NCBI GenBank assembly: GCA_020726505.1
Contig: JAHLEZ010000031.1
Span: 372,001 to 436,000, forward strand
Source of the DNA: Leptodontidium sp. MPI-SDFR-AT-0119
Taxonomy: Eukaryota; Ascomycota; Leotiomycetes; Helotiales; Leptodontidiaceae
Direction: 5' to 3'
DNA length: 64,000 nucleotides
Shown here: positions 88 through 62,888 of the stretch, one piece after another
Position numbering within the stretch: position 1 is the first letter of the stretch
Layout of the letters: every line of letters starts with the position of its first letter
Translations under genes and position numbers: made by a program
The notes under the pieces: model-generated
The model's input: only the letters and a program-made list of their open reading frames with translations
What the model was told of the DNA's origin: nothing
The model's database searches: none

Positions 88-1560
88 ATTACTTAATTAA
101 GCCAGAAATACGTCGGCTTTATAAGCGTTTCGGGCACCCTTTAGTAAGGCGCCTATAGCACTTACTAGACTAAGCTGGCCATAAGCATGACTCGGACGTT
201 ATATTAAGGGTCAAGGATATAAGAATACTAGCCATATGCGAGCCTAATAACCGATGCGAGCCTTTGATACAAAGCTAGTAACTTGATATAAAGCTAATAA
301 CCGATGCGAGCCTTTGATACTCAAAGTAGTTATATAGACCTAGAAATGCCCCCTCAATAGAATCATCATTCACACCATCATTCTTTATTTCACAAAGGAA
401 ATATGTAAGTACTGCTAAAAACACGTAGATACTCTGCATAAGTTCCACTTTAAGTTATAAGACGACGTCGACTTTAATTATATAGTCTACGTCAATATCA
501 CAATATTTAAAGAACGATATGCCCTTTATATAATAAATAAGGCAACGGGTTTTAGTGCGGCGAAACTACTTTAAAAGGCCCCCGGTTCGGCTATAGCTCA
601 GGCTACTTTTAACGTATTTAAGTTAATATAAATTAACACTTACTTTAGGCTCCTAGACTTCGTCGTGTATAATTATAGTATTAATTTTAATTCTAAGGAG
701 TTTCGGAGTGTACTTAAATCTATAAGTAATACCCTTAGGTTAGTACTTGTAAAGGCACACTATTTAATTAGTAAAGTTAAGCGATACTATCGCTTACTAC
801 GCTGTGCTTATAAAATCGTTATAGAAGAGTACTTTAAGTTAAGTGACAAGGACTAATTATAAATAGTAATAAAAGTAGTAAACAATATAGCTAGACTTAA
901 TAGGCTTATCTTTATATTACTTGTTTTTGGCACATACCTTAAAATAATAAAGTTAGACCTCTTAAATCTGTTAGTCGAGTAATATGTAACTATAATTAAG
1001 AAAGTTATAAAGGAGGTATAGAAAATCTATATTACGCGTAAAGTAAACAATACGTTAGTTATACGAAATAGCCCTAGAACTACTTATATTTACAATCTTT
1101 ACCTTAATAATTAAGTTCTAATGTATTAAGAGGGTAAAAAATAGACAGGACCTTATAATTTCTTAAGTATTAAGGGGGAATTATATAAAATTAATATAAG
1201 AAATAAGAAAATATATACGTTTTAATAGACGATAGTTTGTTCCTTTAAAATAAACACCTTTAATATTAAATAACAAAAAGAAAACGCCACTAATATAACA
1301 CTAAATCTACCTTAAATCGCTATTTAAATTCTATTTATAAAATACTTCTTAGATTTATTAACTATTAATAACGATTATAATATTAAAGTGTTTTTAATTA
1401 AGAAAGAGACGAGAGACTAAGAGTTATTTATTAAACTTTAAGTTAAAGGGAAGATTATAATACTTAAGTTATTATTTTAATAGTCCCGAAGGACGGAATA
1501 TAAAGCACTTATTAAAAGGGGTGTTTTTGTGCTTATTTATAAGGACGACCTTAGAGTAAG
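88..1560 (+). pseudogene. Copia A pre-integrase and integrase remnant
   Basis: The degraded polyprotein reads on the plus strand. A GAG-pre-integrase signature (RRLYKRFGHP) lies at about 107-136 and is followed, after the solo LTR, by the integrase core. An open stretch at 665-856 contains HYLISKVKRYYRLLRCAY. This matches the conserved integrase region of fungal copia polyproteins (usual form H-N/Y-S-I-G-K-V-E-R-Y-H). Stops are frequent and mostly TAG or TAA at expected Trp or Gln positions. The catalytic Asp/Glu residues cannot be assigned confidently. It is certainly not functional. Confidence 0.75.
218..394 (-). repeat. Solo LTR, family S, shortened copy
   Basis: An insertion interrupting the integrase reading frame of element A. 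It is flanked by the 5-bp TSD AAGGA (213-217 and 395-399). On the minus strand it starts TGTGAAATAAAG and ends CTTATA (an original CTTACA after a CA-to-TA change). It shares GGTGTGAATGATGATTCTAT and TTTCTAGGTCTATATAACTA with the 384-bp copy at 23929-24312. It is shorter (177 bp), so it carries internal deletions, and it contains a short internal duplication (CCGATGCGAGCCTTTGATAC at about 251 and 302). There is no internal element, so it is a solo LTR. Confidence 0.8.
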
Positions 1561-1572
1561 AGGCCACTGTAT

Positions 1573-1734
1573 TGTTGGAAATCATGTGATCCAAGAATCA
1601 CGTGGATGCCGAAGGCTCTAAAAGCCTTGATTTGTCAACACATGGAAAGCTCTCGAAGCTTTCCCTCATGTATATAAACTTACTCTCACTCTGCCTTTAG
1701 AAGAGTGAGGCATGTAAATAGTCAAAATGTGACA
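1573..1734 (+). repeat. 5' LTR of TRIM B
   Basis: A 162-bp LTR starting TGTTGGAAATCATGTGATC and ending AAATGTGACA. It matches 15180-15341 at the same length, with only about three transitions seen by eye. A TATATAA box (about 1671) is the likely promoter core. Flanked on the left by TSD TGTAT. Confidence 0.9.
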
Positions 1735-2271: not shown

Positions 2272-5200
2272 ATGCCTGTCGTATTAAAATTATCGGAATC
2301 ATCGACTGAGTCGTCAAAGCTAGTCTACGATAACTTCTACGAATAGAAGCTAGAGACTCAAAAGGAGCTCGCTGCCGCCGGAATCTCAGAATAGGTAATT
2401 GACCCTCCGGCACTACCGGCAACAGCGTCTCTTTAACTAGCCTAGAGAAAGGAGTAAAAGGAGGCTCGGAAAATCGTCGTTTCTAGTCTCTCTACCGTTA
2501 TGTTTAAGAAGTATTAAGATCTTATAAACGCCGGGAATATAAAGGTGCTGTGGGACGTACTTTAAGCCGCAGGGACTGCTTACTCGTCCGGAGCTCAATA
2601 CATAGCCAATATCAAGGAGGAGCTAGGCAAAGAGGTGTACAACCCGTCTATCGAGAGTGCCAACGACTATGTCTCTCGTCTGCGGAAGTATAGACTCAGG
2701 CTCTCTAGCGACACTCATCTATTCACTAATGCCGATATCAAGGCAAAGCTAATTATATCACTGCCAAGGCTAGGAGATTAGAAGATAGTACGCAGCGCAC
2801 TATAAAACAACCCTAGAGACTTGGAAGCAGTGCTCCATTAGCTAATTAAGTACTAATTATAATAGAAGGACGAGCTAAAGGTAGTGCCGACTGCAGAACT
2901 AACTGTAATGGAAGCTAATTAGGTGGCGAATAGGGGCAGAGGCAGGGGCAGAGGCCATGGAGGCTATGGAGGCCATGGAGGCTACAGAGGTAGAGCCAGG
3001 GGTAGAGGAGGTTAGAGAGGTGGAAAAGCAACCGGGGACTACAGGGACACATCAAGAAGGGTGCAAAAGACTGCAAAATTGGACAAGAACTAATGCGCGA
3101 AGTGCAAGAAGTTTGGCCATTAGAAGAACGAATACAAGAGTAGAGAGACAGCCAACGTAGCCGCAAATTAATTAGAGACCTTTAAACCTTACTTTACGGA
3201 CCGTATATACCTTATAGAAGAAGTGTAACAGGCCTACACTAGCATTACGGCCGCAAATCAATAGAAACTAAACGCCGGAGCGACTAAACACTTCTCTAGT
3301 GTGTATGCCGACTTTATAAGCCTTAAACGCTAAAGGGACAAGCAAGTGAAGACAGCTAATAATTAATATTCATTTGCGGAAGGCTATAAAGACGTGCAAA
3401 TTAATGGCATAATATTATATAACGTCTAGCATGTGCCTGACTTTAGAAGTACTAGGCTACTGTCGATTAGTGCACTTGCAGAGGACGGAATCAGCATTAT
3501 ATTTAATAACACAGGGGCAAAGTGTTACAAGGACAATAATTTAGTGCTCTTTATGACGAAAGCTAATAGCCTATACGTCTTAGACTCAAATATAAAGGCA
3601 AATACGTCGGAAATACTAGTGCCGGAAACACATACTATAGAGAGCTCATACGACGACCAAAATCAGGAAACGATGCCGGACTTAATACACAGACGGCTTG
3701 GCTATATAAACTATTAGGAAATAGTTAAATTAGAGGCAGTATTCGAGTACGGGATAAAGCTAGGAAAGCGGATAATTTATAAGGGGGAAAAGAGCTACGA
3801 ATCATGCCTGGCCGGTAAGATAAAGGAGCACTTCACTAAAAAGACGGACACTAGAGCCAATACACTATTGCGCCGGCTACACGCCGATATTTCAGGAATC
3901 TAGTGCTAGTCAATTAGGGGGTATAAGTACTACCTAGTCGTAGTAGACGACACAACACGGGTATGTTAGGTACGGCTACTTAAGGACAAAACAGCCGCTG
4001 TAATATAGCCGGAAATTAAGTTGTTAAAGACTTAATTAGAGCTTTAGAAGGGACAAGTAGTCGTGTACTGGCGGACTAATAATAGTAAAGGAGAGTTTAG
4101 AAATGCCTTTATACGCTGGCTATAGGAGCTTAGTATATAGTCAGAGCCATCGCTACTATATAAACAGTCGCTTAATAGAGTATTAGAGCATTAGATATAC
4201 TAACTGTCGAAGATCGTCCGGTCTATACTATACGACGCTAAATAGCCGGACAGTCTTTAGTATTATATTATAGAGCACGTAGCTAGGCTCAAAAACAGGA
4301 GACTAATAAAGGCACTGCTATATTAAAGGGTAAAAGGGCTGACGCCGCTAGAGGCATAAGAAGGTGTACTAGTTAGCTTGTCGTATTACAGAGTATTTAA
4401 AGCAAGAGTATAGCTATTAAGGCCAAAGGCAACGTTCCCTAGGAAGCTAGAGCCAAGAATATAGCTAGGGAAGTACATTTTAGTAAGGATGACTAACTCA
4501 CACATATATAAGCTACTAAATATAAAAAATTAACAGGAGTTGATCTCTACTAACGTCAAATTTGACGAATATATTATATAGCTAGTTACAAGTAAAGCAG
4601 AGACAGTAGTAAGACTTCTAAAGGTTAGAAGGCTAGTTAATAGAGCTGAAAGACCTCTAGTGGGGAGGCCAGACGCTGAAACAGGCTTTGTAGTAAGACC
4701 TCTAAGGAGGCTAGACGCTGAAATAGGCTCTGTAGGAAGACCTCTATAGAGGCTAGACGCTGAAACAGGCTCTATAAGAAGACCTCTAATGGGGAGGCCA
4801 GACGCTGAAATAGGCTCTGTAAGAAGACCTCTAATAGGGAGGCCAGACGTTAAAATAGGCTCTATAAGAAGACCTCTAGTGGGGAGGCTAGACGCTGAAA
4901 CAGGCTCTGTAGTAAGACTTCTAGGGAGGCCAGACGCTGAAATAGGCTTTAAAAGACCTCTAGTAGGGAGGCTAGACGTTAAAACAGGCTCTACAGGGAC
5001 ACTAATTCAAAGACCTCTAGTAGAGAGGCTAACACGTGATGTTAATACGCGAAGGCAAAGAAGTAGTATTACGCAGTCGTTTAATTAGCGATTAGCTAAC
5101 CTCTCTTCTAAGCCTACAGAGTCTAAGTATAGACGACAGCTAAAGCTAAGACGCGTATATAAAGAGTTAATTACAGCTCTAAGAGCTAAAGGCGCGACTA

Positions 5201-6410: not shown

Positions 6411-6415
6411 CGTAG

Positions 6416-6600
6416 TGTCGTACAGGCACGGGCTGATGCTCGGTTAGCTGCGCGCTACGCTGGATATGGCTTCTGCCACGTTATACCGCTTTCAGGAGAA
6501 CAACGTGTTCCCCTGATTTCCTCATGTATTTTAGAGAATAATTAATCACTTTAATTCTCCCTACGTTAATCGCAAGGCTCTACTCTACTTCTGTACTATA
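6416..6600 (+). repeat. 5' LTR of Copia C
   Basis: A 185-bp LTR starting TGTCGTACAGGCACGGGC and ending CTGTACTATA (partner ends CTGTACCACA). Differences from 13857-14041 are transitions, for example TGG to TAG and GCC to GTC. Confidence 0.93.
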
Positions 6601-9800: not shown

Positions 9801-12390
9801 GAAGAGGGACTCTAAGACACTAGAACTAATATAATTAATTGACTGAGCGCACTTAATATATTAGAATCAATAATAAGTACTACCTTAGAAAGGGAATAAC
9901 TAAGTCAAGTAATAAGTTTTATAGAAACTACTGAGTTTGTAACCTTAGGGGTGCCACAGCCTTTAATTAAGCTTTTAATTACAGGGATAAAGTAACTAAT
10001 ATTACCCTTAGAAAAGTCAGGATTAATAGAACTTGTTAATAAAAACTCGGGGGTAAAACAACTAAAGAAGAGTATTAGACTTCTTACTTATAAGTACCTT
10101 AATTAAGTCTTAAAACAAGTCGACAAATTAAAATAGTTAGTGTCTTAGAGCACAACTAAGAGAGATGTCTTATGTAGCGCACTAAACTTTAAGAGAGATA
10201 TAGGAACTAAGCGCTAATTAATACTATAAGTTATTATATACTCTTAAGGGCTATACGACCGAGAGCGTAGTCTTAAGTGTTAGGGAGCACTTACTTAAAG
10301 TGCCGGCCCTAAGTAATCGAAAGCTCCGCCTTAAGTAATAAAATATAAAGAGTATTTTAATTCGTTAGACTTAAGGGAAGAATTAAGTATAAAGTAATAC
10401 TTACTACTTCCGGCCTTAACTAATAATAACTTACTTAAACTTCTACAGAGGAAGAAGGTAAAAGATCGAGTAACTGGCGACGGTCGAAAGACCCGAGTTA
10501 GTAATAAGATTATAAAACCGAATCGAAGCGTCTATATAGTAACTGTTAAAGAGTTAATTACGGAATTATTGAACTTGTCGAGTAACCGTGAGTATTTAGA
10601 GGATTTTCTAGGGACCTTTTGGCCTAGTTAAGAGCTAGTATAAAGAGACGGAAAAGACTTAAGTATAGTCTACGCTATTATCTCAGCGTTTATTCTTCAA
10701 AATATCGAAATTCGACAACCAGTTAATCTCCCACGAATACACTAATCTTAATTACTAAAGGACCTGTTGAATTAGAGAGACTTTAAGAATTACCTTCTAA
10801 GAGAGTACTTCCGAGCTGACGTAATTAAGGAAATTATTAACTTAGAGTCGCGTAACTACTAGAGAGTTGTTAAACAAAGCTTTGCTACTAAATAACTAAT
10901 ACTATTAAAATAAGTATTTCACGCTAAAGTCGATTCGTTAAGGTATTTAATTAAGTGTCACTCGCGAGTTGTTATTAAGGGAGACTTATAACCCGAAACG
11001 TTAATTCTCTTAATATATACGGCTACCTTAGCTGCTCGCTCTTTTAGGACCGTTATAATAATAGTAGCTTAATTTAATTTAAAGATAATCTAATTTAATA
11101 TTATTAACGCCTTTATTAATACTAAACGGAGTGAATCGAGTACTCGCGTACGTTGTTACTTACCGGACGGATTTAAATAAGACGGTATAGTAGTAGAGGT
11201 TAATTATGTGCTCTACGGACTTAGAGACTCGCTAGTACTATAGTATAGAGATTTTATTAAGACTTTATTAAAGTTAAAGTTAATTCCTTATAAGGAGGAG
11301 CCTTGTATCTTTATAAACGAGTAACGTTTAGTCTTTGTTATTTTTTATATTAACGATATTTAAGTGTTATATTACGTTTTAGCCCTTAAAGACGCTTAAC
11401 TTATTATTAACAGCTTAAATATAATATACGAGCTCACTAGAGGAGAACTAACAGAGTAGTTTTTAAGTGTTCGCGTTATTAGAGATTATTAAATAAAGAC
11501 TATTTCTTTAGTATATAATACTTATATTTAAAAGGTTACTTTGTGATTTGACTTAGTAAATGGAAATTGCTTAAGTACTCTATTACCTTAAGTTAAGCTA
11601 CTAAAGAATCAAGGGCAAGTAATCCTAGCTTAAATTAAGGAGTATTAAAAAAAGGTTAGCTTAGTACTTTATATAATAATTATATTACGCGTAGACGTTA
11701 CGTTTACAGTTTTAAGACTTTCTTACTTCTTAACTAACCCCTCTTTAGAGTACCTTGCGGTAGTCAATTAGACTATTCGTTACCTCTTCGGAACCCGATT
11801 TTTAGCGATCACTTATAGTTATAAGTTACGCGACTCTTAGCTTATTATAGCTTCAGATGCTTCATTTGTAGACGATCTCGATACTAGGCGCTCTTCTAAT
11901 AATTATATTATAATACTTTTTAAAGGTTTAATCTTGTAAAGAGCGGCCTTATAAGATATAGTTACTACTTCGACTACACAGGCTAAGCTTTTAGGCGTTA
12001 AGCGCACGGCTAAAGAGATTATGACTTTATAGTGTTTCTTTTGAGAGTTATGTCTTGAGTTAGGGGAAATTTAGAGAATCTTTTACGATAATTAATAAAT
12101 AATATAGTTAATTATTGGGGAAAATCAGTGTATTTCTACTAAGTTACGCCACGTTAATATTTAGAATATATAGTTATACTAAGAGTTTCAAAAGGGCACT
12201 TTTTTAGTTAAATATTTGCTTATAAGTTATATACTTGCTAATAGACTTATAAAGAACTTCTCCCGGCAGAAATTTGAGAGTTTTGTTACTCTTATTAACT
12301 TAGTAGATGTTTGTGTTTAATTAGAGTAACTTACTTTAGAAGCTTCGCTTTAAAGCCGGCTTTTATACACGTTCTTTACCTTTCTTTTGT
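6810..12390 (+). pseudogene. Copia C gag-pol remnant
   Basis: ATG at 6810 (MADSTLVSSFNN) begins a gag-pol frame with many TAG and TAA stops. Recognisable parts: a protease-like stretch (LFSNGAATYLVNSVALLEP, about 8250-8310) in an open segment at 8247-8516; pre-integrase and integrase (about 8700-9500; RLTKYEKWC and NRGVKCVGKEI); RT with NAFINTKRSE (about 11104) and the catalytic loop degraded to INDI+stop+VLYY (about 11350); and RNase H with IIASDASFVDDLDTRRSS (about 11840-11900). The matching minus-strand copy in I confirms the reading. It is clearly non-functional. Confidence 0.9.
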
Positions 12391-12656: not shown

Positions 12657-13577
12657 TTATATAATTAGAAGGCCTAAAACCTCCCGAACTAAGTCACCTA
12701 ACGCACTAGTAATCACCCCAACAAGCTCCTTAACCCGAGTAGCTTAAGCTTCCTGCTCTAGTGTGAGAGTAACTCTAGGAGGCTTATTAGCCATTAAGGC
12801 CTAGAAAGTAACAAGACTAGTACTAATACTAGCGGCCGTAATAGTAGCTCCACTAGCTCCACTTATAACTATAATAGGAGTAGCAGCCGCAGGAGTAACA
12901 GGAGAAGCCGGAGTTGTTCCCTGAGGAGTCTCCTTATTACCCTCTGACTCCGAAGAGGTCTTAACGTAGAAAGTAGCCGTAGCTGTACTTAAAGCACGAC
13001 TGGCTCTATTAGTAGTTCTACTAGTAACAACTTAACCCTTAAGGGCCGTAAAAACTAGAGCTTTTAACCGCTTAAACTCCTAGGGAAATTAGTAATTACA
13101 CGCTAAAAAAAGAATAACTAAGGGAATTTACTTTATCGCCCGCGTTATTTAAGAGCGTAGTGTAATAGAGGAGGAAGGGGGCCTAGGTAGCAGAGGGAGT
13201 AGCCTTATATAAGTGGCCTGACGAGCAAGCGAAATAGCGAGTACTCCGACTAACGACATCGAAGCACTCGCTAGTACTTTTAGTTTGAAGGGCGCTATTG
13301 ATATAACTTAAGCAAATAACCGCACGTTTAGCTCCCTTGACACGAGGGGCACGGGTAGCACAAAGAGTAGCCGCGGGAGCAGCCTTAATAGCCTTGGTAG
13401 CCTTCTTAGAGGCGGTCTTTTTCTTGGCCTTCGCCTATTATAATTAGTAAGTTATACTTAGATCGGCAAATTCTTTAAATCAATAATTAACAATTAATAA
13501 ACTTTAACTTAATAACTTATAGTAATAGTAACACGCTCAGCTTTAACGGCCTTAGCAGATCGATTAGAGACACCTAT
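12657..13577 (-). pseudogene. Antisense zinc-motif gene of Copia C
   Basis: This gene lies on the strand opposite to gag-pol, between RNase H and the 3' LTR, and is transcribed towards pol. The start is ATA (an expected ATG after RIP) at 13577, reading GVSNRSAKAVKAERV. An intron ends with ..ATTATAATAG before 13434. The next exon is Lys/Ala-rich (AKAKKKTASKKATKA). The motif at 13314-13207 is C-x2-Y-x12-C-x9-Y-x2-C-x3-H-x-Y, where each Tyr is one TGT-to-TAT change from Cys. A C-terminal helical segment (TRVKELVGVITSALGDLVREV) is followed by a stop at 12657. The same gene occurs in E, G and J. Function is unknown; a nucleic-acid-binding role is an inference from the basic N-terminus and Cys/His motif. 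Confidence 0.8.
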
Positions 13578-13844: not shown

Positions 13845-13856
13845 GGCTGGGGGGTG
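13845..13856 (+). promoter_or_regulatory. Polypurine tract of Copia C
   Basis: GGCTGGGGGGTG immediately precedes the 3' LTR. Equivalent tracts directly before TGTCG occur in G (TAGGGGTG), I (CTGGGGGGTG) and J (GCGAGGGGGTG) on their own strands. Confidence 0.75.
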
Positions 13857-14041
13857 TGTCGTACAGGCACGGGCTGATGCTCGGTTAGCTGCGCGCTACG
13901 CTAGATATAGCTTCTGTCACGTTATACCGCTTTTAGGAGAATAACGTGTTCCCCTGATTTCCTCATATATTTTAGAGAACAATCAATCACTTTAATTCTC
14001 CCTACGTTAATCGCAAGGCTCTACTCCACTTCTGTACCACA
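13857..14041 (+). repeat. 3' LTR of Copia C
   Basis: A 185-bp partner of 6416-6600, ending CTTCTGTACCACA and followed by TSD CGTAG. Confidence 0.93.
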
Positions 14042-15179: not shown

Positions 15180-15341
15180 TGTTGGAAATCATGTGATCTA
15201 AGAATCACGTGGATGCCGAAGGCTCTAGAAGCCTTGATTTGTCAACACATGGAAAGCTCTCGAAGCTTTCCCTCATGTATATAAACTTACTCTCACTCTG
15301 CCTTTAGAAGAGTGAGGCATGCAAATAGTCAAAATGTGACA
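15180..15341 (+). repeat. 3' LTR of TRIM B
   Basis: A 162-bp partner of 1573-1734, followed by TSD TGTAT (15342-15346), after which element A resumes. Confidence 0.92.
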
Positions 15342-15346
15342 TGTAT

Positions 15347-16789
15347 CTTTAAGTCAAGAATAATAAACGAGGTTAAAAGCAAAGAGACGTTAACTTTATA
15401 TAAGAAATTAAGACTAATAATTTAATAATTTAATTAGTAGTTACTTATATTTTTGGCCGTTACTATTAAGTACTTAAATCGCCTCTGAAACTAGTCTAAA
15501 TCCCATTTAGCTATTAGGGACATTATTTAAGCTTACGTCTAAGTAAAAACAAGGCTTCTCTAGGACATTTTTATATAGTTACTAAAAGAGATCGCAAGAG
15601 ATTTCCCTCTTAGTATAATATTTATAATAATAATATTATTATATAATATACTTAAGTCTAGAAACTATTAGTTTAATATATACTATAAACATCACGTGGA
15701 GAACTTATAAATAGAGACCTTAATATATAACCTATACTTGTTAATTAGTACTAAAGAAAGCTATGACTTTAGTATCGTGGGAATACAAATAAACGACACT
15801 TTAATTTTAGGAAATAAGGACTTTTTAATAAGAGAGTAAGATAAGATTACTAAGGCCGGTTTTCTAATAAAGCCGATATAAATATTACTTCTTATTAAAA
15901 TTATTACGTTTAATAGGTGTACTATTATTATAAACGGGGACAGCCTTTATATGTCTTAAAAGGGTTAGGGAGTAAGGCTAGAGTTAGTAGACGCTAGAAA
16001 AGAGGACTATAAAAAGGTTTATAGAGAGTAGCGAGCTTATATAGCTTATATTGCTATTATATATTAACTAAAAGTAATATTTAACCTCTCGGTCGTAGCG
16101 TAACACTAAGATCTAACGGAAGACGATATTAAGGCCTTAAACCTACGTCTTAAATAATAAATAAATAATTTAGAGAGGGGACTCTAATACGTACTAGTTA
16201 ATTTACAGTCCGCGAAGGTCTACGTTTTTATAGACGGTTCTTTTATTAATAATAAAGACTTAAGTTCATAGATAGGTTTCATATTAGTAATTAGTACTAA
16301 AATAGTAAAGGATACGTAATTTACCTTAATTATATATATTATATATATTGGCTTAATAAAATACAAGAGAGTAACTCGTGTAGTGCTTGTATCGGAGTTA
16401 TATACTATAGTAGCTAGTATTAATATATTAATTTCCCTTAGTATTACTATTAATACAGTAATTAATAAGCTTAGTATCTCACGTCTTCTTATTATTATTT
16501 ACACGGATTCTTTGTCCCTTTATAAGTATATTGTTAAGCTTAATACGACGAAAGAGAAGCGCCTAATAATCGATATTATAGTTATTTGTTAATTATATAA
16601 ACGTAAAGAGTTAACAGAGGTTTAATAAATTAATAGCGCTAATAATCTTACTGACGTTATAACGAAGAGTGCCCCGAATAAGGCTCTTCGGGATTTTATT
16701 AACACTAACATCCTTATTATTAAAATAGAGGGTTAAGTTTAACAATTAACTAGAATTAATTCGGACTAGAAATAAAGGGGTTTCTTATA
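15347..16789 (+). pseudogene. Copia A RT and RNase H remnant
   Basis: Continuation of element A after the TRIM stack. RT is heavily degraded. The RNase H part is clear: VYVFIDGSFINNKDLSS (about 16220-16270), then IYTDSLSLYKYIVKLNTTKEKRL (about 16497-16565) and NNLTDVITKSAPNKALRDF (about 16640-16700), ending near 16735. The same motifs in element D read VFIDGSFTNNTDYSS and IYTDSKLIYDYIVKLSTTQEK, so A and D are the same family. Element G is inserted 55 bp after the end of this frame (TSD CTTAT). Confidence 0.85.
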
Positions 16790-17776: not shown

Positions 17777-19044
17777 CTTTTAAGACTACTAAGAGTCTAT
17801 AAGAACGTTCTAGGGCTCTCACTAATCGAATGAATCGCTAGATTACCTGCGAGGAAGGTGGCTCTAATATAAAGTGCAAAGTTATATAAGAATAACGTCG
17901 CTAAAGACTTTAAGTTATAAGTATTTATTTCCTTATCTTTGATTATTTATTTTTATACTTTTATCTTTTACCCCCTTACTTTCGAGTATTAAATTAACTC
18001 TTTAAGTAATAAATGATTACTATAGAAGTATCCGCCTTATTATCTCTTATCTAAGAAAACAATAATAATAAGCTTAAGGATGTCTTTAGTAATATTAATA
18101 ATAATAAGGATGAGCTTACTAGCGGTGCTTCTTTTACTCCTTTTACACTTTCTTATTTTATTATTTCCTTAAGCGATCCCCTTTATTTTATAGACGTATC
18201 CGACTTTAATAATGACATTTTACTTGTCCCTCGCCGCTTTCGTCGTACTTTTATTCGCCTCTCTTTACTAAAATCTTCACTTCTTATTCGCGTTACTCGT
18301 ACGTTATTTAAGATAATTATTTAAGTTTCTTCTAGTACTTTAAAGACTCCTAAGAGAGTATTAAATAAAGTTCTTAATCTTTAACCTCGTAAGCGCGTTA
18401 GTGTTTTTACTTCTCCTCGCTAGTCTCGTAAGAGTTCTAAGGGATCTTCATTAGTAAGAAGAACTTGTGGTATATATTCCTTTTTATTTATTTAAATCTC
18501 ACTTTCATTAATTAATTATTAAAGTATATATTAATAATACTATAGGCCGCGAATTTACTAATCCTTGTTTATTATATATCCGAGCTACTGCCTTCAGCAA
18601 AGGAGATCGAGGCCACTATTATATAAATACTACTTCGGCTAGTAATTACTACTTTACTTATATTAGTGGCTATATATACTCTCTTGCTACTGACGATCTT
18701 TTAAAGTACAGTAAGAGACTGGTCCGCGCTATTAATACTAACGATTAAAAGGTATATGAATTCTTCGATGAATTATTAGCGATTATTAGGCTAACTGTTT
18801 TAAGTCTATTAAGAAGTATCGCGTCACTATTAAGACTTTCCTCGAGAATTTAAGTAAGTCTTCGAGCTCCGAAGAGGAGACTAATAAGATCGTTCCCTCT
18901 TCTTCGCGCCGTCTTTCTCTTAAGTATAATAAGAAGGATAACTCAGATAATAAGGCTAAAACTGGAGTTAGTGGAGTTACGGGAAAGCGCAGAAAGTCTA
19001 TAAGTATTATAAATATATTTGAAAATATAATTAATATACTTTAG
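17777..19044 (+). pseudogene. Antisense zinc-motif gene of Copia G
   Basis: A plus-strand gene inside the minus-strand element G, between RNase H and the 3' LTR. Probable exon 1 is at about 17777-17925 (TPFKTTKSLQERSRALTNRMNR). A long central exon starts at ATG 18013 or upstream. An intron lies at about 18474-18544 (GTATAT..CTATAG). The next exon carries the motif at 18566-18679: C-x2-Y-x14-Y-x9-Y-x2-Y-x3-Y-x-Y, with Cys/His-to-Tyr changes at RIP-type sites. A final exon, 18790-19044, is open for about 85 codons; it is Lys/Ser-rich and ends in a hydrophobic helix. The 38-bp intron before it (18752-18789) is unusually short and uncertain. Exon borders are my reading. Confidence 0.65.
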
Positions 19045-19199: not shown

Positions 19200-20964
19200 C
19201 TTTTAATAAATATATTTAAAGCTCTTTAACTTGAGATCTATAATTACTAGAGTTCAAGAGAGCTTTAAATAGCTCGAATTTCTAGCGAGACAAATTCTTT
19301 GTGAGACTATTAATAAGTATATTAGTAGTTAGAAAATATATTACTTTAAAGGATCCGCGAGTATACTCTTACTTTAGCTATATGTTATAAATATTAATAT
19401 AGCGTAGCTTTGTCGCGATCCTTTTAGTATTATTTACAACGAGCTTAATAGTTTATTAATTATTATATAAAATCTCTTACGTCTCACTTAAATTAAGAGC
19501 TAGATTTTTGAAGAAGCGCTAAAGAGCTATAGTTTCTTTACTTATATACTTTAATATAAGTAGTTCTATTTCAGTTATTAAAGTAATAATTATTACTTGT
19601 CTTAATACTTTCTAGATCACTAGCCTATTAAATAAAAAGATCACGTAACCTTAGGATAATCGTCGTGTATTCACATTATTAGCGAAAGAGGTATTAAAGG
19701 CAATAATAATTGCTCTGCCTTAGTGCCTACTATAAATAATACCTAGGAAGCGCGTACTAAATAAGTAATAAATGAGCTAGTGTATTGTAGTGAAATAATT
19801 AGGCCTAGGATTTGTTGCGAATTGTGAGAGTAAAGTAATTATATATGTAACATCCGGTCTTATAATAATTACTGTGTATAAGACAGAGCTTACTCTCTCC
19901 TAATATACTTTAATATATTTCTTAGAAGTTTGTCTTGTGTATTTAATAAGATTGATTTATGGCAGTAGTGTCGTTAGACAATTACTATCTGCCTATTTAA
20001 ATTTACGAGTGATCTTCTTAAGGTACTAGTTATAGACTAAGGAAATTGTTTTGCGCTTTTAATCACGTAATACTTTAATCCCTAAGAATTATTTAATATC
20101 TCTAAGATTATATATATTATATACCTAATTTAGACGCTTAATAAAATCTTGTCTAAGCTTTTAATTATCTCGGTGATAGAGCACTTAGATGTCGTCTATA
20201 TAAAAGAGGACTAAGATTTTGTGTTTAAGATTTATAAATATATAGGGCTCCTCTAAGTAAGGAGAGAGCCCTAGATCGGTCAGAGTCTTACTTATATACT
20301 TATACTAGAAGTAAGGGGAATCACGTATTTTATAGAGCGCGCGATTAACTCATAATACTTGGCTAGGCTATTAGAACCCGGGTAGAAATTAATAATACAC
20401 TATTTCGCCGTTTATATCTCTTAAGGCATTAATAAAGGCATTAATCACGTCGAAGTACTTGACTTCTAAATTAAAATAAGCTGCGAGCGCTATAGTGATT
20501 TTAAAAGACTTTATAGAGAGCGTATTAGCGTATATTAATATAATTATTACTTTACTTTAGAGATTACCCTAAACTACTATTCAAGGATAATAGTAAGCGT
20601 TATAAATACTTTACTACCTTTACTCCCTCTACGCGGTCTCCCTCCTCTTCTCGTGCTTCTTACTAACTTTTCTTAAGCACTTAAGGCTTTAGATTGAGCC
20701 GTAGCGGCCTTAACCTTTATTTAAGAACGTATTATTACTCTCGTCTATTTCGTACGTTTAACTAAGCTCTTAATACTTTAGTCCGAGAGCGCGTCACTGC
20801 TTTCAATAACGAATCTGAGGTTCTAGAAGCTTACTCTTAAGAAGTTAATTACTTTAAACTTTTATCCGCAACTTCTAAAGTTACTTAACTAGAGTTTTTA
20901 GTTAGTTCCTTTAATATTTCTTTTAATAATAGTAACTTTACTCGCGGGTAATCCGCTTTTAAAG
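19200..20964 (-). pseudogene. Copia G RT and RNase H remnant
   Basis: The minus-strand frame shows copia RT: KYFDVINAFINALRDINGE (about 20460-20400), a region like NRALYKIRDSPYF (about 20350-20300), EEPYIFINLKHKILVLFYIDDI (about 20250-20190; catalytic YIDD loop intact). RNase H follows, with ATKLRYINIYNI (about 19395-19360) and INSLTKNLSRQKFELFKALLN-like residues (about 19310-19230). TAG and TAA stops are frequent. The RT is cut from its integrase by the D insertion. Confidence 0.85.
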
Positions 20965-23859: not shown

Positions 23860-26173
23860 GTGATTTTTATGGAATCTTAATCGACACTAGTGTAGCTCGT
23901 AAATTAACAGTAGGTTATAACTAGTACTTGAAAAGAAGTGATACTTGGTGTGAATGATGATTCTATTGTAAAGGGGATTTCTAGGTCTATATAACTACTC
24001 TAGCTTATCACGTGTGTATTCGCTTAGGTAGCCGAATTAGGTAAATGTAAGCTCAAACGAGCTCAAACGAGTCTTTACCAAATACAGTTGCTTTCCGGTA
24101 GTTTGAGACGCAGAGCCCGGAGCTTCGTACAACCACTGTTTTAGCCTAGGAAAGCCGTGTATCAGAAGCCTTGGATTTCATGGCTGTAACCTGTGGACGT
24201 CAGAGCTTTGTATCAGACGTATGTGGCTTGTTTTAAACTATTTCCGGCTGATTAGGCCTAGAATAGGTTTTGTTGAGTATATAAGCAAGGTAGTTATATT
24301 ATAATCTTTATAGTACTTAGCTTATAATAAGCTGTACCCTATAAAAATCAATGAATCTATGACGATTAGCGTTAAATTCGGCATTGGCGACGTTACTTCC
24401 ATCGGCTTTATCGACATTAATATACTAGTAGGAAAGCTCCGATTTTACGTCTTCTATATAAGGACTTTATTTTTACTTTCTCTTGTTGATATAGATAAAA
24501 ACAAGCTCTACTTCAATAACCTGACGAATACACTTCGTAAAGACGAACAGAGAGAGGTACTAATTATCTGACGATTTCGCCACCCTTAGCTTTTCTAAGA
24601 CGAATCACTTTACACTTTTCTTATAGAATCAATTAAATAGAACGAATGTTACCTCATAGAGCTAGAAATACGCCGCCTTCATAAGCGCTTCGGCCACCTG
24701 TCAGTAAAACGCCTTTAGAAGCTTCTTGATAGAGTAGGCTATAATATTGATATAAATGCGCTAAAGTATATAACTAAGTATTGTGAGGAATATTAAAAGC
24801 ACGGCAAATCACCTAATAGATTCCACTTTATATTAAGAGACAATACTGACTTTAATTACTGCGTTTTTATTAATATCGCTGTAATCGACAGCACTAATAT
24901 AGTATATATAGTAAACTAATCGACACGCTTCCAGGCCAGACAATAGCTCAAGAATACGACAGTAGAGCACGTATAGGAGAAGATCAAGGAATACTAGATT
25001 GACATATACTTAAGACTACTAGATATACTTATATACGACTAAGGACTTTAATTCATTAGTAGCGAATTTAATTAATACGTCACTTCCCTAGGAATTACAA
25101 TAAAACCTGTACTTACAGAAGCCTACTATTTTATTAGTTAAGTGGAGCGTTACTACGCCATCTTAAAGCGTATCTACGACATAGTTAAATCGGAATCACT
25201 AAGTTTATTAAAAGAGAGTACACTATAAATAGCCCTTAAGGCAATTAACGACACAGTAAGACTAGACGGCCTAATACCGACATTACTCGTATTCGGCGCC
25301 TTCCCTCGTATAATAACAAACGATACTCTATCAAAGACCGTATCAGAGAGAGCCGCCACATATAAGAAGGCTATAATAGAGGTTCGTAAGCTCTATACGC
25401 AATCACAAGTCGACAGAGTATTATATACCCGTAACGGACCGAGTACAGTAACTGTCAAGGACTTACTACTTTAGTCTCTAATTATAACGTACAGAGAGAG
25501 ACCTAGAAAGAAGAGCGGCGAGTAGACAGGACTATATATACTATTAGCGACTTAAGGAGAGGACTATATCGTGCAAGTCAACGATAAGGCCGTAACTTTA
25601 CGCTTAACGTCTATACGACCGTTTTTATAAGACATATAATAAAGCGCCACCGAACTAGAGCATAGAGACTACTAAGAACTAACACAGGAGAATCGCCAGG
25701 AACTACAGCTAAAGTTAACTGACGATGTTATACTACTAGACGCGACTCTTATACCTATTCGACGACGCAAGGGCAGACCACGTGCCGTACGACACAATGC
25801 CACTATACACGTTAATAGAGAGCCAAGTTACGAGCATTCGCGACAAAAGGAAATCAACGGACTAATTGACAACTAGACCTTTAAGTTTATAAACTACTAC
25901 GATATCCCCGTTAGTACAAGAATATTTAACTCACACTTTATTAACGAAGTTAAAGACGTAAGCACACTAAATGCTTATAAAAAGTTAAGACTTATTATCT
26001 AAGTATATAATAACGAAAGAAAGACGATTATATAAACTTAATTACTAATAATTTAACGTATAAGCCAGAGAATCTTACTTTACTTAATAGTAATGTTCCC
26101 AGAGTATAAGCTTTACTTATAAGACATAACCTAAGCTTACACACAATTAAATATAAAGCTCGTCTAAGAAATC
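23860..26173 (+). pseudogene. Copia D protease and integrase remnant
   Basis: The protease active site reads YGILIDTSVARKLTVGYN (about 23868-23920; usual D-T-G-A changed to D-T-S-V). It continues after the solo LTR with ISVKFGIGDVTSIG (about 24365-24406), then YFNNLTNTLR. Pre-integrase EIRRLHKRFGHLSVKRL is at about 24665-24715. Integrase follows, including VERYYAILKRIYDIVKSES (about 25140-25200), an open stretch LKAINDTVRLDGLIPTLLVF (about 25230-25290) and AATYKKAIIEVRKLY (about 25355-25400). K interrupts the frame at TA 26174. Confidence 0.88.
23929..24312 (+). repeat. Solo LTR, family S, full copy
   Basis: A 384-bp insertion in the D protease frame with TSD GTACT (23924-23928 and 24313-24317). 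It starts TGAAAAGAAGTG and ends AATCTTTATA (CA changed to TA). Removing it and one TSD copy rejoins the reading frame from the Q-Y after GYN into LAYNKLYP-like residues. It is visibly less AT-rich than D and shares blocks with the solo LTR at 218-394. Confidence 0.85.
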
Positions 26174-26175
26174 TA

Positions 26176-26205
26176 CAGTCCGTCCACCTCAAACACGGTA
26201 AAATT
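26176..26205 (+). repeat. Left terminal inverted repeat of K
   Basis: Thirty bases that are the exact reverse complement of 30387-30416. First twenty: CAGTCCGTCCACCTCAAACA. Confidence 0.95.
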
Positions 26206-26991: not shown

Positions 26992-29972
26992 TCAAGCTAA
27001 GTGATCTACCTCTAAGGGGTTACCCTCTAGTACTATATCGAACTCTTTTATCCACGCTTCCGTAATATACCTATGGCCGCTTTGCTTTTTAACACACCAA
27101 GCTGCTTGTTTTACGCTAAGCCCTTTCCGGTAAGCGTCCATAAAGCGTAAAGCTCTATTAATATACCTTCGAAGTGTATTAAGAGGGCAAGAATCAAGAG
27201 CTTTAAAAGCAGCTTCTCGAGCCTATAAAATAAACAAATATATAAGTAAATATATTAAAAGGGTAGGTAAAAAGTGATATATACGTCGTCAAAGGTAGTC
27301 TTCCAAACCTGTCGATAAAGGTTTTTACAGTAGGCCCAATACATCTCAATCGGGTTTAGCTCGCAATAAAACTTCGGTAAAAAGAGACACTTATGGCCTC
27401 TAGCCAATAGTATCTCTTCTAAAGCTGACTTTTGCTCAAAGAAGTCTTTGTGATTAGCTAGAATCCTTACTAAACAACAAGTAGCTTTCTTAGTCGGAGG
27501 CCAAGAGAGGAGGTTATTACACCTCTTTTTTGCTTCTCCGGTACACTTAGCGACTAGAAGCTTTTTCCCTATAATTAGTTAATAAAATATTCCAAAACTA
27601 ACTATTAATAACGTACCGGTAAGTAAACACCCTCTCTCTGCGAGAATCTATTTAATTCCCTTTGGTGTTTCTTCGATTATTGTCTTTTTGACCCTCTTTT
27701 TTTTGCTAGGAATTTCAACCTTAATAACCTTCTCTACCTTATAGTTGAGCTCTTGAATAGTACCAACTAGCCCACGAGCTTGTTTAGCTTCGCTAATATC
27801 AGGGGGAAAGTATGTATCCTAAAATTAAGTTAGTATTTCCTAAATAGGAAGGTATAACTAAAATACCTTTTGAGGTAAAGGAGCTCCCCCTTCTCCAAGA
27901 TTCATAGCGAAAGCGTTCAACGCTCCACTTCCCTTGCTAGCGTGAGCACTTGATTGGTCAAAAACAAAGACAGCTACCTTATTAGGGTGCTTTTCTTCGA
28001 ATATATCAATAGCTTCCGCCACTTGCTCTAAGAGCTGCTTTGTATCCCAATATTCGACTTTTTGCGGCCCTCCCGGATATATGATTTTCCGAGCATCCTT
28101 TTGACCAATAGTAAGCCTCCCTTCAAGACTTATAAAGTCAGAAACGTGAATAAGACCTCCTTTACTTTTAGAGGGCATTTTTTGTTGATTATCGTCTAAC
28201 CAAATACGAGTAGAATAGTCTTTAGCGTGAAAACAACTCTCGTCGTGGTAGTAAATAATGTGCTCTTTCTCCCCCGGTGGTAGAGTTGGTAGAATTGGTT
28301 GTAATACTTTATCAGCGTCTTCTTCGTAATTCGTAGTTAACGACTGGTAAAGAGCTATTTGCGGTAGGAATTCTTTTTGACGATATTCAATAACGTCTTC
28401 TCTCTCGTGGCCGTCAACGTAGACTCCTTTCTTTTCTTCGGTAGCGTAAAAGCCAAGACGATTTAACCACTTATAAGTAGACGTTCTACCAAGTGGTTTC
28501 CATTCTTTTGGCTTTTTACCGACCTTATTCCGTGTACTAGTAGTATTACTAAGAAGAGGTTTTTTAAGCTTTCTAGCCGAAGCAAGTAGCCGAGGCATGA
28601 TCTGCGTATTAAGGGCGTGTCGAAACCCCTTTGGTGTAACTGTAGCTAGCTTTTGAGCTAATAACCAAGCTCTACAAGCTTTATAAACGTCTTCGTTATT
28701 AAGATAAGAGCGATTTTTTTGCTTGCCACCACGAGTTTCAATTGGTAAATAGCCGTAAGTTCGATAATAGAGATATAAAGCTCTAATCTTTCGGGCAAGG
28801 GTTTTTCCGTTTCCAGTAGGGTGATTACTTTCGGCGACAAGTAAAGAAGCTTCGATTCTACCTCTATGAGGATTTCTTTTCAAGATATTTTGGACGTATT
28901 GTTGAATAAGCGAATATTCAAAGCGTACGCGAGGAAGTAGCGGAAGGTGTTTATTATTGACTTGTTTTTTAATCGAATCGAGTACTTCTCTATAAGTTCT
29001 TGGCGTAATAAGAGACTCAGAGGTAAGATCAATAGCGTCGCTAATAAGAGAGTCTAATAAAAGCTCCCTTCGTCCACTATCAAGAAACTCAACGTCGTTA
29101 AGATTATCTAACTCAATAGAGTTATCTTCGGCTTCGAATTCAGCCTCTACTTGAGCGTCAAAATCAGAATCTTCGTCGTCGTCGTTATCGTCGCTCGAAT
29201 AGATATCTTCGAATATATCTTCTTCTTCAGGAGGTAAAGGTAAAGGTTTTAGCTTAAAAAAAGCAGAAAGAGGTTGTTGAGTTATTGACTTAATAGCTGA
29301 AGAGCCAACTGAGCCAGAGGGTGTTTTGTTGACTTTTTGAAGCGAAGTTTGTCGATTTATCTCTCGTTGAGCCGCTCTAGCTCGTTTACGAGTTACTGAG
29401 GATTTCTCTTCAAGAGGGGCTAATTTACTCTTATAAGAGCCTTTGGATTCTAAATTAGAAGTTAGTTATATTATATATATATATAAAGATATTAAACACT
29501 TACTGAAAGTTGGTAGATCAATCACTTTCTCAAGTGGTACAATTAAGTTACCCTTTGAGTTGATTATTGACTGACGAAAGTACTTAGAGGTTTTAAACTC
29601 TTCGGTAACTTCCTTCTCAATATCTGATTCGTCGATATCCTCCCTGTCTAGCCTATCCGGGCCTAGCTCTTCAAGATCTTGATCTAAAAACTCGTTGGCT
29701 TGAGTTATATTATCTTCTTCTTCGTCCTCGCTCTCTGATTCGCTAATCACTTGAGCTCTCCTTTCTTCCTCAAACTCTGATTCGTCGACTTGACTACTAT
29801 TAAAAGCAGTAGGTGTGGTAATAGCAATAAGCTTCGTAGGGCGTAAAGGTAAGGGAATTGTAGAAGAAGATTCAGGTGTTTGTTGACGTAGCCGCTTTGC
29901 AATTGGCTGAATAGGCGACTTAGGAGGTGATTTAGCGAGTGTAACGCTTTTATTACGCTTTGAAGGAGCCAT
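26992..29972 (-). CDS. Transposase of K, DDE family, five exons, one RIP stop
   Basis: Cuts and joins the ends of K in the nucleus. I read complement(26992-27222, 27285-27568, 27617-27818, 27867-29449, 29504-29972): 2,769 nt, divisible by three, 922 residues. The introns are 48-62 bp with GT-AG ends and branch-like TACTAAC or similar. Start is ATG (MAPSKRNKS). The N-terminus is basic, then two acidic Asp/Glu stretches (about 75-125 and 240-275). The DDE core has YYHDESCF (Asp about 559), VFVFDQSSAH (Asp about 654) and CELNPIEMYW (Glu about 821 or 826). The C-terminus has a conserved MDAYRKGL block. One in-frame TAG at 27650-27648 replaces a likely Trp. Similar long transposases occur widely in fungi; I cannot name the exact family. 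Confidence 0.88.
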
Positions 29973-30156
29973 ACTAAGTGTCGTAGAAGTGGTAGTTGAG
30001 AGAATAGTGGTGGTGGTGCTAATATTAAGGTAGAGTTGACGTTGAAAGTTGAAGATATTTCAGCTCGCTTAATATTAAGCTAAAGAACACCAATAATCCT
30101 TAATTATTAAAACTCCACGTTTAATAAAACGTTCTAATCTATCTTATAGATCTAAC

Positions 30157-30418: not shown

Positions 30419-31608
30419 CGTCCGAGCACTAAAAGGCGTACCTTAATAAAAAGGCTACTTCTTCCGCATTAAAAAGCCACTATATAAAGTACTAAAGTCA
30501 GGAAACTATTAGTTTAACACCTAGCATAAGCACTATAAAGTCAGACTTAACACTAAGGACTTAACATTCGATCCTTGCCTTATATATATTAATAACGAGA
30601 ATAGCTTTAGTATTATAAGATTACAAACTGACAACACACTCTTCTTGGCTAATAGCGAATTTATAACAAAAGAAGAAGAGGAGCTACTAAAGTCAGGAAA
30701 GAAGGTAAAACTATGTAAGGAGCTTATAGTAGACTATACCCTTAAGTTTAATAGAGGCATAATTACTCTTAGCTCTAACGGCAGTATATATCTAGACTAA
30801 GTATAATAGACTAAGTCTCTATAACTCGTTCAAGAGAAAGTAATAAATATAACTAGTACTAGAGGTAAAGTCACTAAGAAAGTTACTCTACGAGAGTAAT
30901 ACGTCGCATAACGAGCCCGCGGAGCCTACCTTAGTACTATTTCGTAACCTGAAGCCGCGTTTGACCTGTCACGGGCAGTACAAGTAACTAATATTTAATA
31001 TCACTATATTAAAGAACTAAATAAGAGACTTTAATAGTAGAAGGATAATAGCGGCAGAGGCTTACGATTCGTTAAATTAAAGACTACTAGTGTGTAAATA
31101 GCTGTCTTTATAGACGGAAGCTTCACTAATAACACCGACTATAGCTCACAAATTAGTTTCGTTATTATTACTACTAATAAGGACGGAAAAGCTAATATAC
31201 TCTATTAGTTAAGCACAAAATATAAGAGAATCACTCGATCCGTATTAGCCTTAGAGCTCTTCGCTATAAGTAACGGCTTCGACATAGTATCAGCTATTAA
31301 GTCGACATTTGAGGCAGTACTTAATACGACTATTTTATTACGCATTTACACGGATTCTAAATTAATATACGACTATATTGTCAAGTTAAGTACAACACAA
31401 GAGAAGAGACTTATAGTCGACCTTATGTGCCTTTGCCAAAGCTACGAACGTAGAGAAATCGATAGAGTCGATTAGATTAACAGAACTAACAACTTAGCCG
31501 ACGCTATAACTAAGTCAAAGGCTTACTTAGCACTACGTGAGCTAATTGAGACTAATAAGTTCGACGTCAAGTTGACTAAATAGGTAGAGAGAAAGGCAAG
31601 CTCTTAAA
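30419..31608 (+). pseudogene. Copia D RT C-terminus and RNase H remnant
   Basis: Resumes the D frame after K. RT remnants lie at 30430-30900. RNase H is clear: AVFIDGSFTNNTDYSSQISF (about 31097-31160), TRSVLALELFAISNGFDI (about 31230-31285), RIYTDSKLIYDYIVKLSTTQ (about 31340-31400), then NNLADAITKSKAYLALREL (about 31486-31545). The frame ends near 31606, about 15 bp before the 3' LTR, so D has no space for an extra gene. Confidence 0.88.
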
Positions 31609-46652: not shown

Positions 46653-46825
46653 GTTGAAGATTTAGTGGGGTTTCGTAATATATAGCCTAGCTCTTTTTAA
46701 GTTCTCTTAGAAAATATATAAATTTTTAAACTATATATTTATTACTCTGTCATCACTATATTCGCATTAGAATATATTTACATATGCGGCGTGGTACATA
46801 AACCGGTACTGCACCGACATAAACA
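46653..46825 (+). repeat. Repeat R, second unit, right part
   Basis: Continuation of the R unit after the H insertion: GTGGGGTTTCGTAATATATAG to GGTACTGCACCGACATA. It is equivalent to 37640-37812 with RIP-type transitions. It ends where the truncated Copia E begins. Confidence 0.75.
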
Positions 46826-46827
46826 AG

Positions 46828-47850
46828 TAACGTTTAGTTTTTATTATCTTTTATGTCGACGATATTTAAGTGTTATATTACGCTTTAGCCCTTAGAAACG
46901 CTTAACTTATTATTAACGGCTTAAATACAGTATACGAGCTTACTAAAGGAGAACTAATAAAGTAGTTTTTAGGTGTTTGTGTTATTAAAAATTGTTAAGT
47001 AAAGACTATTTCCTTAGTATACGACACTTATATTTAAAAAGTTACTTTGCGATTTAACTTAGTAGATGAAAATTGCTTAAGTACTTTATTACCTTAAGTC
47101 GTGTTATTAAAGAATTAAGAGTAAGTAACCCTAGCTTAAATTAAGAAGTATTAAGAGAAGGTTAGCTTAGTACTTTACACGGTAATTATGTTGCGTATAA
47201 ACGTTACGTTTGCAGCTTTAAGATTTTCTTACTTCTTAACTAACTCCTCTTTAGAGCACTTTGCGGTAGTTAATTAGACTATTCGTTACCTTTTTAGAAC
47301 CCGATTTTTGGCGATCACTTATAGTTACAAGTCACACAACTCCTAGCTTATTATAGTTTCAGATACTTCATTTGTAGACGATCTTGATACTAGGCGCTCC
47401 TTTAATAGTTATATTGTGATACTTTTTAGAAGTTTAATCTTATAAAGAGCGGCCTTATAAGATATAGTCACTACTTCGACTACACAGGCTAAGCTTTTAG
47501 GGGTTAAGCGTACGACTAAGGAGATTATAGCTTTATAACGTTTCTTTTAAGAACTACGTCTTAAGTTAAAGGAAATTTAGAAGATCTTTTATAATAATTA
47601 ATAAACGATTTGGTTGATTATTAGGGAAAATTAGCGTATCTCTATTAAGCTACGCTACGTTAATATTTAGAATATGTAATTACGCTAAAAGTTTTAAAAG
47701 GGCATTTTTTTAGTCGAATATTTACTTATAAATTATATGCCCGTTAATAAACTTATAAAAAACCTTTCTTGGCAAAATTTTAAGAGTTTTATTACTCTTA
47801 TTAACTTAGTGGATATTCGTGCTTAACTAGCGTAACTTAATTTAGAAGCT
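46828..47850 (+). pseudogene. Copia E RT C-terminus and RNase H remnant
   Basis: Begins at the RT catalytic loop (YVDDI, then stop, VLYYALALR; about 46850-46890). RNase H is marked by IVSDTSFVDDLDTRRSFNSYIV-like residues (about 47358-47420), then ATLRYVNI (about 47650) and TKNLSWQNFKSFITL-like residues (about 47755-47810). Heavily interrupted by TAG and TAA. Confidence 0.85.
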
Positions 47851-48122: not shown

Positions 48123-48930
48123 CTAATTATCTTTAGGTGGCAAGCCCCGAACTTCCCTAGCTAGAGCAGCTAAGGCACTTCTAATCACACCACAAAGCTC
48201 GTCAATGCGAGCGGCCGAAGTTCTCTTCATTTAAAAGAAATTAACTGAATTAGCTTTAATTTTGCGGGAAATTTAAAATTAAAATAATATACTAAACTCC
48301 TTAATAGTAGTACTACCTTTATCTTCCTTTTCCTCGTTACTTCCTCTAAAGCCAGTTACTCTACTAGTAGCGGTAGTAATAACCTTACTTTAAAAGGTAA
48401 TAAAAACGGGAGCTTTTAGGAGCTTTAATTTTTAAAATAATTAATAATTACACGCTAAAAAGGAATAACTAAGGGAATTTACCTTTTTACTTACGTCGTT
48501 TAAAAGCGTAATATAGTAAAGGAGGAAAGAGGCTTAGGTAGTAGCGGGAGTAATCTTATAAGAGTAGCCTAATAAGTAAGCGAAACAACGAGTACTTTAA
48601 TTAATAATATCGAAGCACTCGCTAGTACTTTTAGTTTAGAGGGCGCTATTAATATAACTTAAATATATGACTAACCGCTTATTTCCCTTGACTCGAGGAG
48701 TACGAGCACGAGTAATAGGAGTAGCCGCAGTAGCTCTCTTTAAAGTAGAAGTAGCCTTTAGAGACTTCTTGGCTTTCTTCTTTTTCTTCGCCTATTATAA
48801 TTAGTAATACTTAAATTAATATATAGCCCCAAAATTAACGATTAACTTAATAAAAATTAATTTAATAACTTATAATAATAGTCGAACGATTAGCCTTAAC
48901 GGCCTAAGTAGAGCGTTTTAATATACTCAT
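48123..48930 (-). pseudogene. Antisense zinc-motif gene of Copia E
   Basis: Second copy of the gene at 12657-13577. Here the ATG start is intact (48930: MSILKRST). The intron acceptor CTATTATAATAG-like precedes a Lys-rich exon (AKKKKKAKKSLKATST). The motif region shows Y-x2-Y-x12-C-x9-C-x2-Y-x3-Y-x-Y. Positions that are Tyr here are Cys or His in copy C at two sites and vice versa at one, so together the copies support all but two of the seven ligands. The C-terminal helix RIDELCGVIRSALAALAREV (48213-48155) is uninterrupted. The start lies about 250 bp from the 3' LTR. Confidence 0.75.
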
Positions 48931-55309: not shown

Positions 55310-55314
55310 TTAGT

Positions 55315-55515
55315 TGTCGTGCAAGAGCACGCCTAGAGGCTCCACAGAGGCGTATTTGACGTATTATTGAGGTATGCGCAGTACTGTAATTGATGGTTGT
55401 ATTTTTTTTTTACGTATGGTGTATTCGAGCTCCCTGAATATGGAGCTCGCGGGCGCTTTGGCTATAGTGCCTATGATTGGCCTCGCTTAGTTGGCCTACC
55501 ATAACCTGCACGACA
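55315..55515 (-). repeat. 3' LTR of Copia J
   Basis: A 201-bp LTR whose two ends form an inverted repeat (TGTCGTGCA ... TGCACGACA). It contains GAGCTCCCTGAATATGGAGCTC, a near-palindrome. On the minus strand it is preceded by GCGAGGGGGTG. Confidence 0.93.
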
Positions 55516-55747
55516 CACCCCCTCGCCAAGGACAATATTAAGCTTTGGCGAAGTAAACAAGTGCTTAACAAACATAATAGACAATAGGAAATCGACATAT
55601 AATATATGACTGACAATAGTAAACCGACAGACAGTAAGGAAAAATAATAAATAGTAGTTAGAGCAAATATACTAAACGTACAAACGAGAGTATATAGACA
55701 ACTGCTCCCCTATCGTAACTTCCTTCTATAAGTATACTAAATTCAAA

Positions 55748-62629: not shown

Positions 62630-62664
62630 GTCGGCGCGTGTATGCGACTAGGAAGCTTTAATAG

Positions 62665-62883: not shown

Positions 62884-62888
62884 TTAGT

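Follow-up and report, generated by a model that had tools for sequence, protein, structure and literature searches.

Antisense genes in the Copia elements of the window

The DNA analysed here, referred to as the window, is a stretch of 64,000 nucleotides from Leptodontidium sp. MPI-SDFR-AT-0119, and the whole 77 Mb genome of this fungus was searched for further copies. Four Copia copies in the window, named J, C, E, and G, carry a gene on the strand opposite to gag-pol. An earlier note on this DNA had proposed this orientation, and in each of the four tblastn with the open J-family pol places pol on the other strand. Likewise, the translations agree with the Cys/His motif spans that had been reported for J, C, and G.

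Copia J is full length (55315-62883, minus strand) and is bounded by LTRs (55315-55515 and 62682-62883) that are 98.5 % identical. It interrupts an inverted Copia C copy, which occupies 50459-55315 and resumes at 62884-63305, the repeat arms continuing one another. The end of RT and RNase H lie at 56891-58168 on the minus strand, with 85 % identity by tblastn to the J-family pol of L003. The antisense gene, on the plus strand, was delimited by alignment to the open copy L002. Exon 1 (55748-55828) encodes a basic N-terminus, and its start codon position reads ATA instead of ATG. Exon 2 (55934-56239, ends set from L002) lies in an open frame at 55931-56287 with homologues P0001-P0003, and its translation contains the motif CX2CX13CX8CX2CX4HXC at 56051-56161. 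Exon 3 (56294-56339) is followed by exon 4 (56396-56622), which encodes an Ala/Pro linker and the C-terminal stretch RIKELLVELVDLLVV, judged by eye to be a helix.

The antisense genes of the other three copies are interrupted by stops and show RIP-type damage. In Copia C the gene is at 12657-13577 on the minus strand (motif 13314-13207), one of 40 scored genomic places; the relatives L048 and P0111 have a start codon. The RT end and RNase H of C are on the plus strand at 11061-12311 (54 % identity to J pol by tblastn), and a part of the 3′ LTR at 13856-14037 (plus strand) is 95 % identical to the 5′ part at 6415-6596. Copy E has a C-type gene at 48123-48930 on the minus strand, recognised by translation and by the repeat shared with C, with outer ends taken from the earlier note; its pol is on the plus strand at 46810-47841 (50 % to J pol by tblastn). 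The Copia G gene (17777-19044, plus strand, ends also from the earlier note) was matched to C by profile, has its translated motif at 18566-18679 on the plus strand, and faces an RT end and RNase H on the minus strand at 19219-20490 (45 % to J pol by tblastn). An LTR pair for G was looked for in the window and not found.

Elsewhere in the window, long open frames of 535 and 197 aa lie in a damaged region at 27858-30059 on the minus strand, the first giving the impression of a transposase-type protein, and a 42-base tandem repeat with an open frame is present at 4608-5002.

Position and strand across the genome

For each family 40 candidate places were scored, from 53 for J, 112 for C, and 57 for G, and the counts are therefore lower bounds; the G motif exon alone was scored at 54 places. 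Proximity to RT was assessed against 150 listed RVT_2 places, after 16 short fragments of J and one of G had been set aside, and 81 of the 120 J, C, and G places are without a listed RVT_2 within 3 kb. Where one is listed within that distance, the gene is antisense to RT and 0.93-1.32 kb downstream of it (30/30 for J, 8/8 for G, and 1/1 for C). In the C/E type, pol is on the opposite strand in all 30 loci read from the 40 places. Assignment of J to Ty1/copia is based on the Pfam match of its RT (RVT_2, 87 bits). The sole exception in orientation that was seen is a partial G-like zinc exon (C67:2793162-2793296, L065) that shares its strand with the nearest RVT_2, possibly the result of a rearrangement.

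Gene structure and selection in open copies

Two further J copies, L002 and L003, have open antisense genes that are identical over 853 bases. Their RT matches sit in stop-free frames of 1889 aa (L002) and 1925 aa (L003), the former being without the last 36 aa of the latter. A third open gene, in L061, belongs to a subfamily (J2) and also adjoins a frame of 1889 aa. Once spliced, the J gene would have four exons and encode 206 aa, and that of J2 five exons and 201 aa.

A scan for donor, branch site, and acceptor found fungal-type introns on the antisense strand only: three in J, three in J2, and two in K, the more distant lineage described below, and none on the sense strand of any of the three. 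Shuffled sequences matched these antisense counts in 0/500 (J), 2/500 (J2), and 12/500 (K) cases, with a pattern that was defined after the introns had been read by eye and that misses intron 1 of J2. Among public gene models, the exon joins predicted here recur in P0002 and P0111; P0003 shares the first join and uses a different acceptor at the second, and P0003 and P0111 each omit part of the motif. The exon layout of C is like that of J, with a basic first exon, a zinc exon, an exon opening with ELKRLRA (LKSLRA in J and LRRLRA in J2), and then a helical-looking C-terminal stretch. At 653-797 of L061, J2 has two units resembling intron 3, the donor sequences of which are nearly identical.

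The earlier note had named dN/dS as a check, and the comparison of J with J2 gave 0.31 over 191 codons and 0.19 in the 63-codon Cys/His core (Fisher p=6e-8 and 4e-4, respectively, computed on rounded counts). The J-type protein is therefore under purifying selection. This bears on whether it is the antisense transcript that matters and not the protein, the RNA pairing with that of gag-pol and so limiting copy number or feeding small-RNA silencing. The gene is convergent with gag-pol, and antisense RNA of this kind is discussed as regulatory in the available part of a review (PMC7264820). However, a dN/dS of 0.31 in the J type, the conserved Cys/His places, and a K-type family with a confidently modelled fold all argue for the protein, and a role of the transcript in its place is considered unlikely.

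Cys/His ligands and RIP-type mutation

The motif of C reads CX2CX12CX9CX2CX3HXC, and that of G, with its Tyr residues taken for Cys or His, would read CX2CX14CX9CX2CX3HXC; the first loop is thus of 12-14 residues across J, C, and G. Every Cys and His is present in the open J-type copies L002, L003, and L061. In the C/E type, all seven ligand columns hold Cys/Tyr or His/Tyr only in the 30 copies compared, those of the window included, and no copy is free of a ligand Tyr. Among the three G copies read, Cys was seen at three of the seven ligand places, and the other four hold Tyr in every copy. Among the public models, P0001 has all ligands, P0002 has Tyr at three, and P0110, apparently annotated in this very genome, has five of seven.

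Differences between copies are largely of the RIP type. Compared to L002, 61 of the 91 differences in the J gene of the window are C-to-T or G-to-A, as are 419 of the 444 in five other damaged copies (L004, 61/70; L005, 44/54; L006, 91/94; L007, 102/102; L008, 121/124). The preponderance of these changes supports the earlier suggestion that the Tyr residues were derived from Cys or His by RIP.

The same data speak to the idea that the protein shields its element from RIP or silencing. The open J copies and those of K look undamaged though repeated, but RIP-type changes are seen in 6/8 J, 30/30 C/E, and 3/3 G carriers read (window copies included). With damage in the majority of these carriers, such protection is highly improbable.

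Relationship of the J, C, and G genes

Profile comparison gave E=5e-6 for C with G, and for J with C 5e-4 using the zinc exon and 8e-5 using the longer protein; no column shuffle, out of 60 or 100 run, equalled these matches. The J-G match alone was not significant, with 2/60 shuffles as good. Named homologues of the J and C genes are from Leptodontidium and Leptodophora only, and a Pfam search with the J, C, and G exons returned no DUF3716 match at E≤10. One gene common to C, E, G, and J had been claimed. The open copies, canonical introns, purifying selection, and C-G and J-C matches stand in favour of this and support a real antisense gene common to the four, between RNase H and the 3′ LTR, although the direct link of J to G is not significant.

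A DUF3716 gene in a second Copia lineage

The domain DUF3716 (PF12511), named in Pfam as a protein of unknown function, was found at 28 places in the genome, 16 of which carry one common frame of 183 aa. Thirteen of these 16 have one score, the cluster being unchanged as judged by score, and three score slightly lower. The encoded protein matches DUF3716 with 52.8 bits (cut-off 22), and its gene belongs to an element named K, where it lies on the strand opposite to gag-pol, between RNase H and the 3′ LTR. Base-by-base comparison of six of the ten loci fetched, those on the plus strand, showed no difference for at least 1,215 bases on the upstream side of the domain and 1,500 on the downstream side; the frame of L010 reads the same. 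A gag-pol frame of 1732 aa is present in four copies, three of which have identical 275-bp LTRs and 5-bp target duplications, and the lineage has apparently been active recently.

K is a Ty1/copia element, with integrase before RT and RVT_2 at 1020 (33.8 bits, cut-off 31.6); the matches to an H2C2-type zinc domain (at 592) and to rve (at 664) are both under the cut-off. Its pol is only 21 % identical to that of J over 435 columns, therefore K and J are regarded as two distant Copia lineages. Four regions of the window (404-1606, 15291-16733, 24356-26179, and 30468-31595) match K gag-pol with 30-37 % identity. Kinship of the antisense proteins is a separate matter: the J-K profile match was equalled by 4/60 shuffles, and homology is not shown. 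The C-K match is weak (E 0.0076), being better than 60/60 shuffles and yet given a probability of 5 %.

At E≤0.001, the K-type protein has 106 homologues, of which the named ones are all ascomycete, with Botrytis, Histoplasma, Aspergillus, Trichoderma, and Usnea among the genera. An alignment of 73 shows no variation at Cys120 and Cys134 and conservation of 90 % or more at His153 and the four remaining Cys. The start codon in K is predicted to arise through splicing only (AAT|G), and Arg precedes ALxLxN in 24 of the 26 homologues, among the 106, with a recognised start region. Such an Arg would be expected if a conserved AG|G acceptor were read through in the unspliced state.

The Zn2Cys6 (GAL4-type) cluster has the pattern CX2CX6CX5-12CX2CX6-8C. 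Identity with it was considered for these proteins and rejected: the first loop is of 12-14 residues in J, C, and G and of 8-17 in the K type (from the 56 of 106 homologues fitting the pattern used), and there is no Pfam match to such a family.

Structure prediction, which had been suggested for the Cys/His cluster, succeeded for one type. The J model is poor (pLDDT 56), whereas that of the K-type protein P0004, 98 % identical to K, is confident over residues 41-160, forming a domain of about 120 residues. The P0004 model found no match in the PDB, and nothing there speaks for binding of nucleic acids by the K fold. Another reading is a nucleocapsid supplied in trans for particle assembly: small proteins with Cys/His are typical of that role, and the J-type protein is strongly basic, with a net charge of +21 over 206 aa. 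Against it, the K-type fold is a domain of about 120 residues and not a knuckle, and K Gag already has its own CX2CX4CX4H knuckle, which weakens a sole role of this kind. In the J Gag frames, which are damaged, scanning brought up no knuckle, and such a role may hold there. Overall, an assembly role is judged improbable.

Over about 6.3 kb, a single base separates each of three K copies, L027-L029, from L021; the three share this change, which turns the last zinc Cys of the DUF3716 cluster into Tyr. As their left flanks are all different, the variant has moved, and an intact cluster in cis is thus not needed for its spread. This fits either action in trans or dispensability. The spread of this variant speaks for a captured host gene, carried as a passenger without function for the element, and so does the presence in the same genome of DUF3716 genes, at L025 and L026, for which the 9.9 kb of sequence read contain nothing that matches K gag-pol. 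A passenger sits poorly, however, with one open frame at 16 K places, with purifying selection between J and J2, and with retention of the gene across J, C/E, and G despite pol sequences only 45-54 % identical to that of J. The passenger reading is rather doubtful, and a function for the element is preferred. The genes at L025 and L026 also have an LQRQLDSL-type C-terminal stretch, and L026 has two DUF3716 places close together.

Proposed function

In two Copia lineages, then, an open Cys-rich gene lies antisense to gag-pol, with intron signals on its own strand and conserved Cys and His, and in one of them its product is a DUF3716 protein. It is proposed, with a probability of about 0.5, that this gene has its own spliced transcript and encodes a small zinc-binding accessory protein, likely to act in trans on the nucleic acids of the element in the nucleus.

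On the basis of the intron signals, the gene is predicted to be transcribed and spliced, and this would occur separately from gag-pol. The orientation has a likely logic in the retrotransposition cycle. Were the gene in the sense direction, its introns would be removed when the genomic RNA is spliced and would be missing once that RNA is reverse transcribed. In antisense they would go unrecognised in the genomic RNA and hence persist through retrotransposition; introns would thus survive only on the antisense strand. Since the predicted start in K needs the AAT|G splice, its protein would come only from spliced antisense RNA.

In the J and K types alike, the product would be a small zinc-dependent nucleic-acid-binding protein acting in trans. 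For the J type a nuclear location is probable, because the protein is so strongly basic; the K protein differs from it in having a net charge of 0, which counts against the proposal. The likely effect would be to regulate or support the nuclear stage of the element, be it expression, import, or integration, from a layout comparable to that of HTLV-1 HBZ. A broader view is offered tentatively and may well be wrong: that fungal Copia elements gained a third, antisense, and hence intron-keeping gene at least twice, and that the DUF3716 subtype found widely in ascomycetes is in essence an accessory gene of retrotransposons, the product of which has a new fold and an HBZ-like trans-acting regulatory role. 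Deletion and ligand tests are possible, because K is open at 13 places and a natural variant with the loss of one Cys exists. K also places DUF3716, which Pfam lists without a function, in the setting of a retrotransposon.

Comparison with known antisense genes

Grande and RIRE2 are elements of the Ty3/gypsy kind. Descriptions of antisense genes in LTR elements go back to the 1990s, and in the excerpts available of a 2020 review (PMC7264820) they are said to have no known function. Those between pol and the 3′ LTR (aORF-3R) include gene23 of maize Grande and the genes of rice RIRE2, Silene Retand, and PvRetro13, and the Retand proteins with a TRP28 domain are predicted to bind DNA (PMC7264820, PMC11963269). 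As far as these excerpts go, the J, C, G, and K genes resemble the plant genes in place, in orientation, and in being kept in many copies. At all 39 J, C, and G places where an RT is listed no farther than 3 kb away, the gene is on the strand opposite to pol, and it lies between pol and the 3′ LTR in J and K, where both LTRs were identified, and in C, which has an LTR pair. The plant genes differ in their hosts, Retand being Ty3/gypsy, and in their protein domains, whereas in this fungus the elements are Ty1/copia and the genes have a Cys/His cluster, several predicted introns, and, in one lineage, DUF3716.

A closer parallel in host is brtn, an antisense gene of the Boty-like elements of Botrytis cinerea (Zhao et al., 2011, Virology 417:248). 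It resembles the J and K genes in being antisense in a fungal LTR element; according to the accessible passages, Boty itself has a chromodomain (PMC4227169) and is classed as Gypsy (PMC8365987). Further additional ORFs appear in a figure on Botrytis Gypsy and Copia classes, in a passage that gives neither strand nor family (PMC8365987). K-type homologues are also present in Botrytis (P0014, P0024, and P0055).

The earlier note held that Copia elements normally encode only gag-pol, which is fair, although antisense genes in this position form a recognised group in Ty3/gypsy, to which Boty adds a fungal case. It also knew of no described copia lineage with such a gene, and the literature searched here, chiefly open-access, likewise yielded no Copia antisense gene at the aORF-3R place. 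In that literature no link of Copia elements to DUF3716 was found, and DUF3716 itself was mentioned in none of it. The aORF-3R class is already established, and what is new relative to the literature searched is the Copia host and the link to DUF3716.

HTLV-1 HBZ is an antisense, spliced gene near the 3′ LTR, the product of which is a regulatory bZIP protein. An antisense promoter in the 3′ LTR of HTLV is mentioned in the source text available. The Copia antisense genes are like HBZ in layout; HBZ being a bZIP protein, the likeness is one of arrangement, and no kinship of sequence is claimed.
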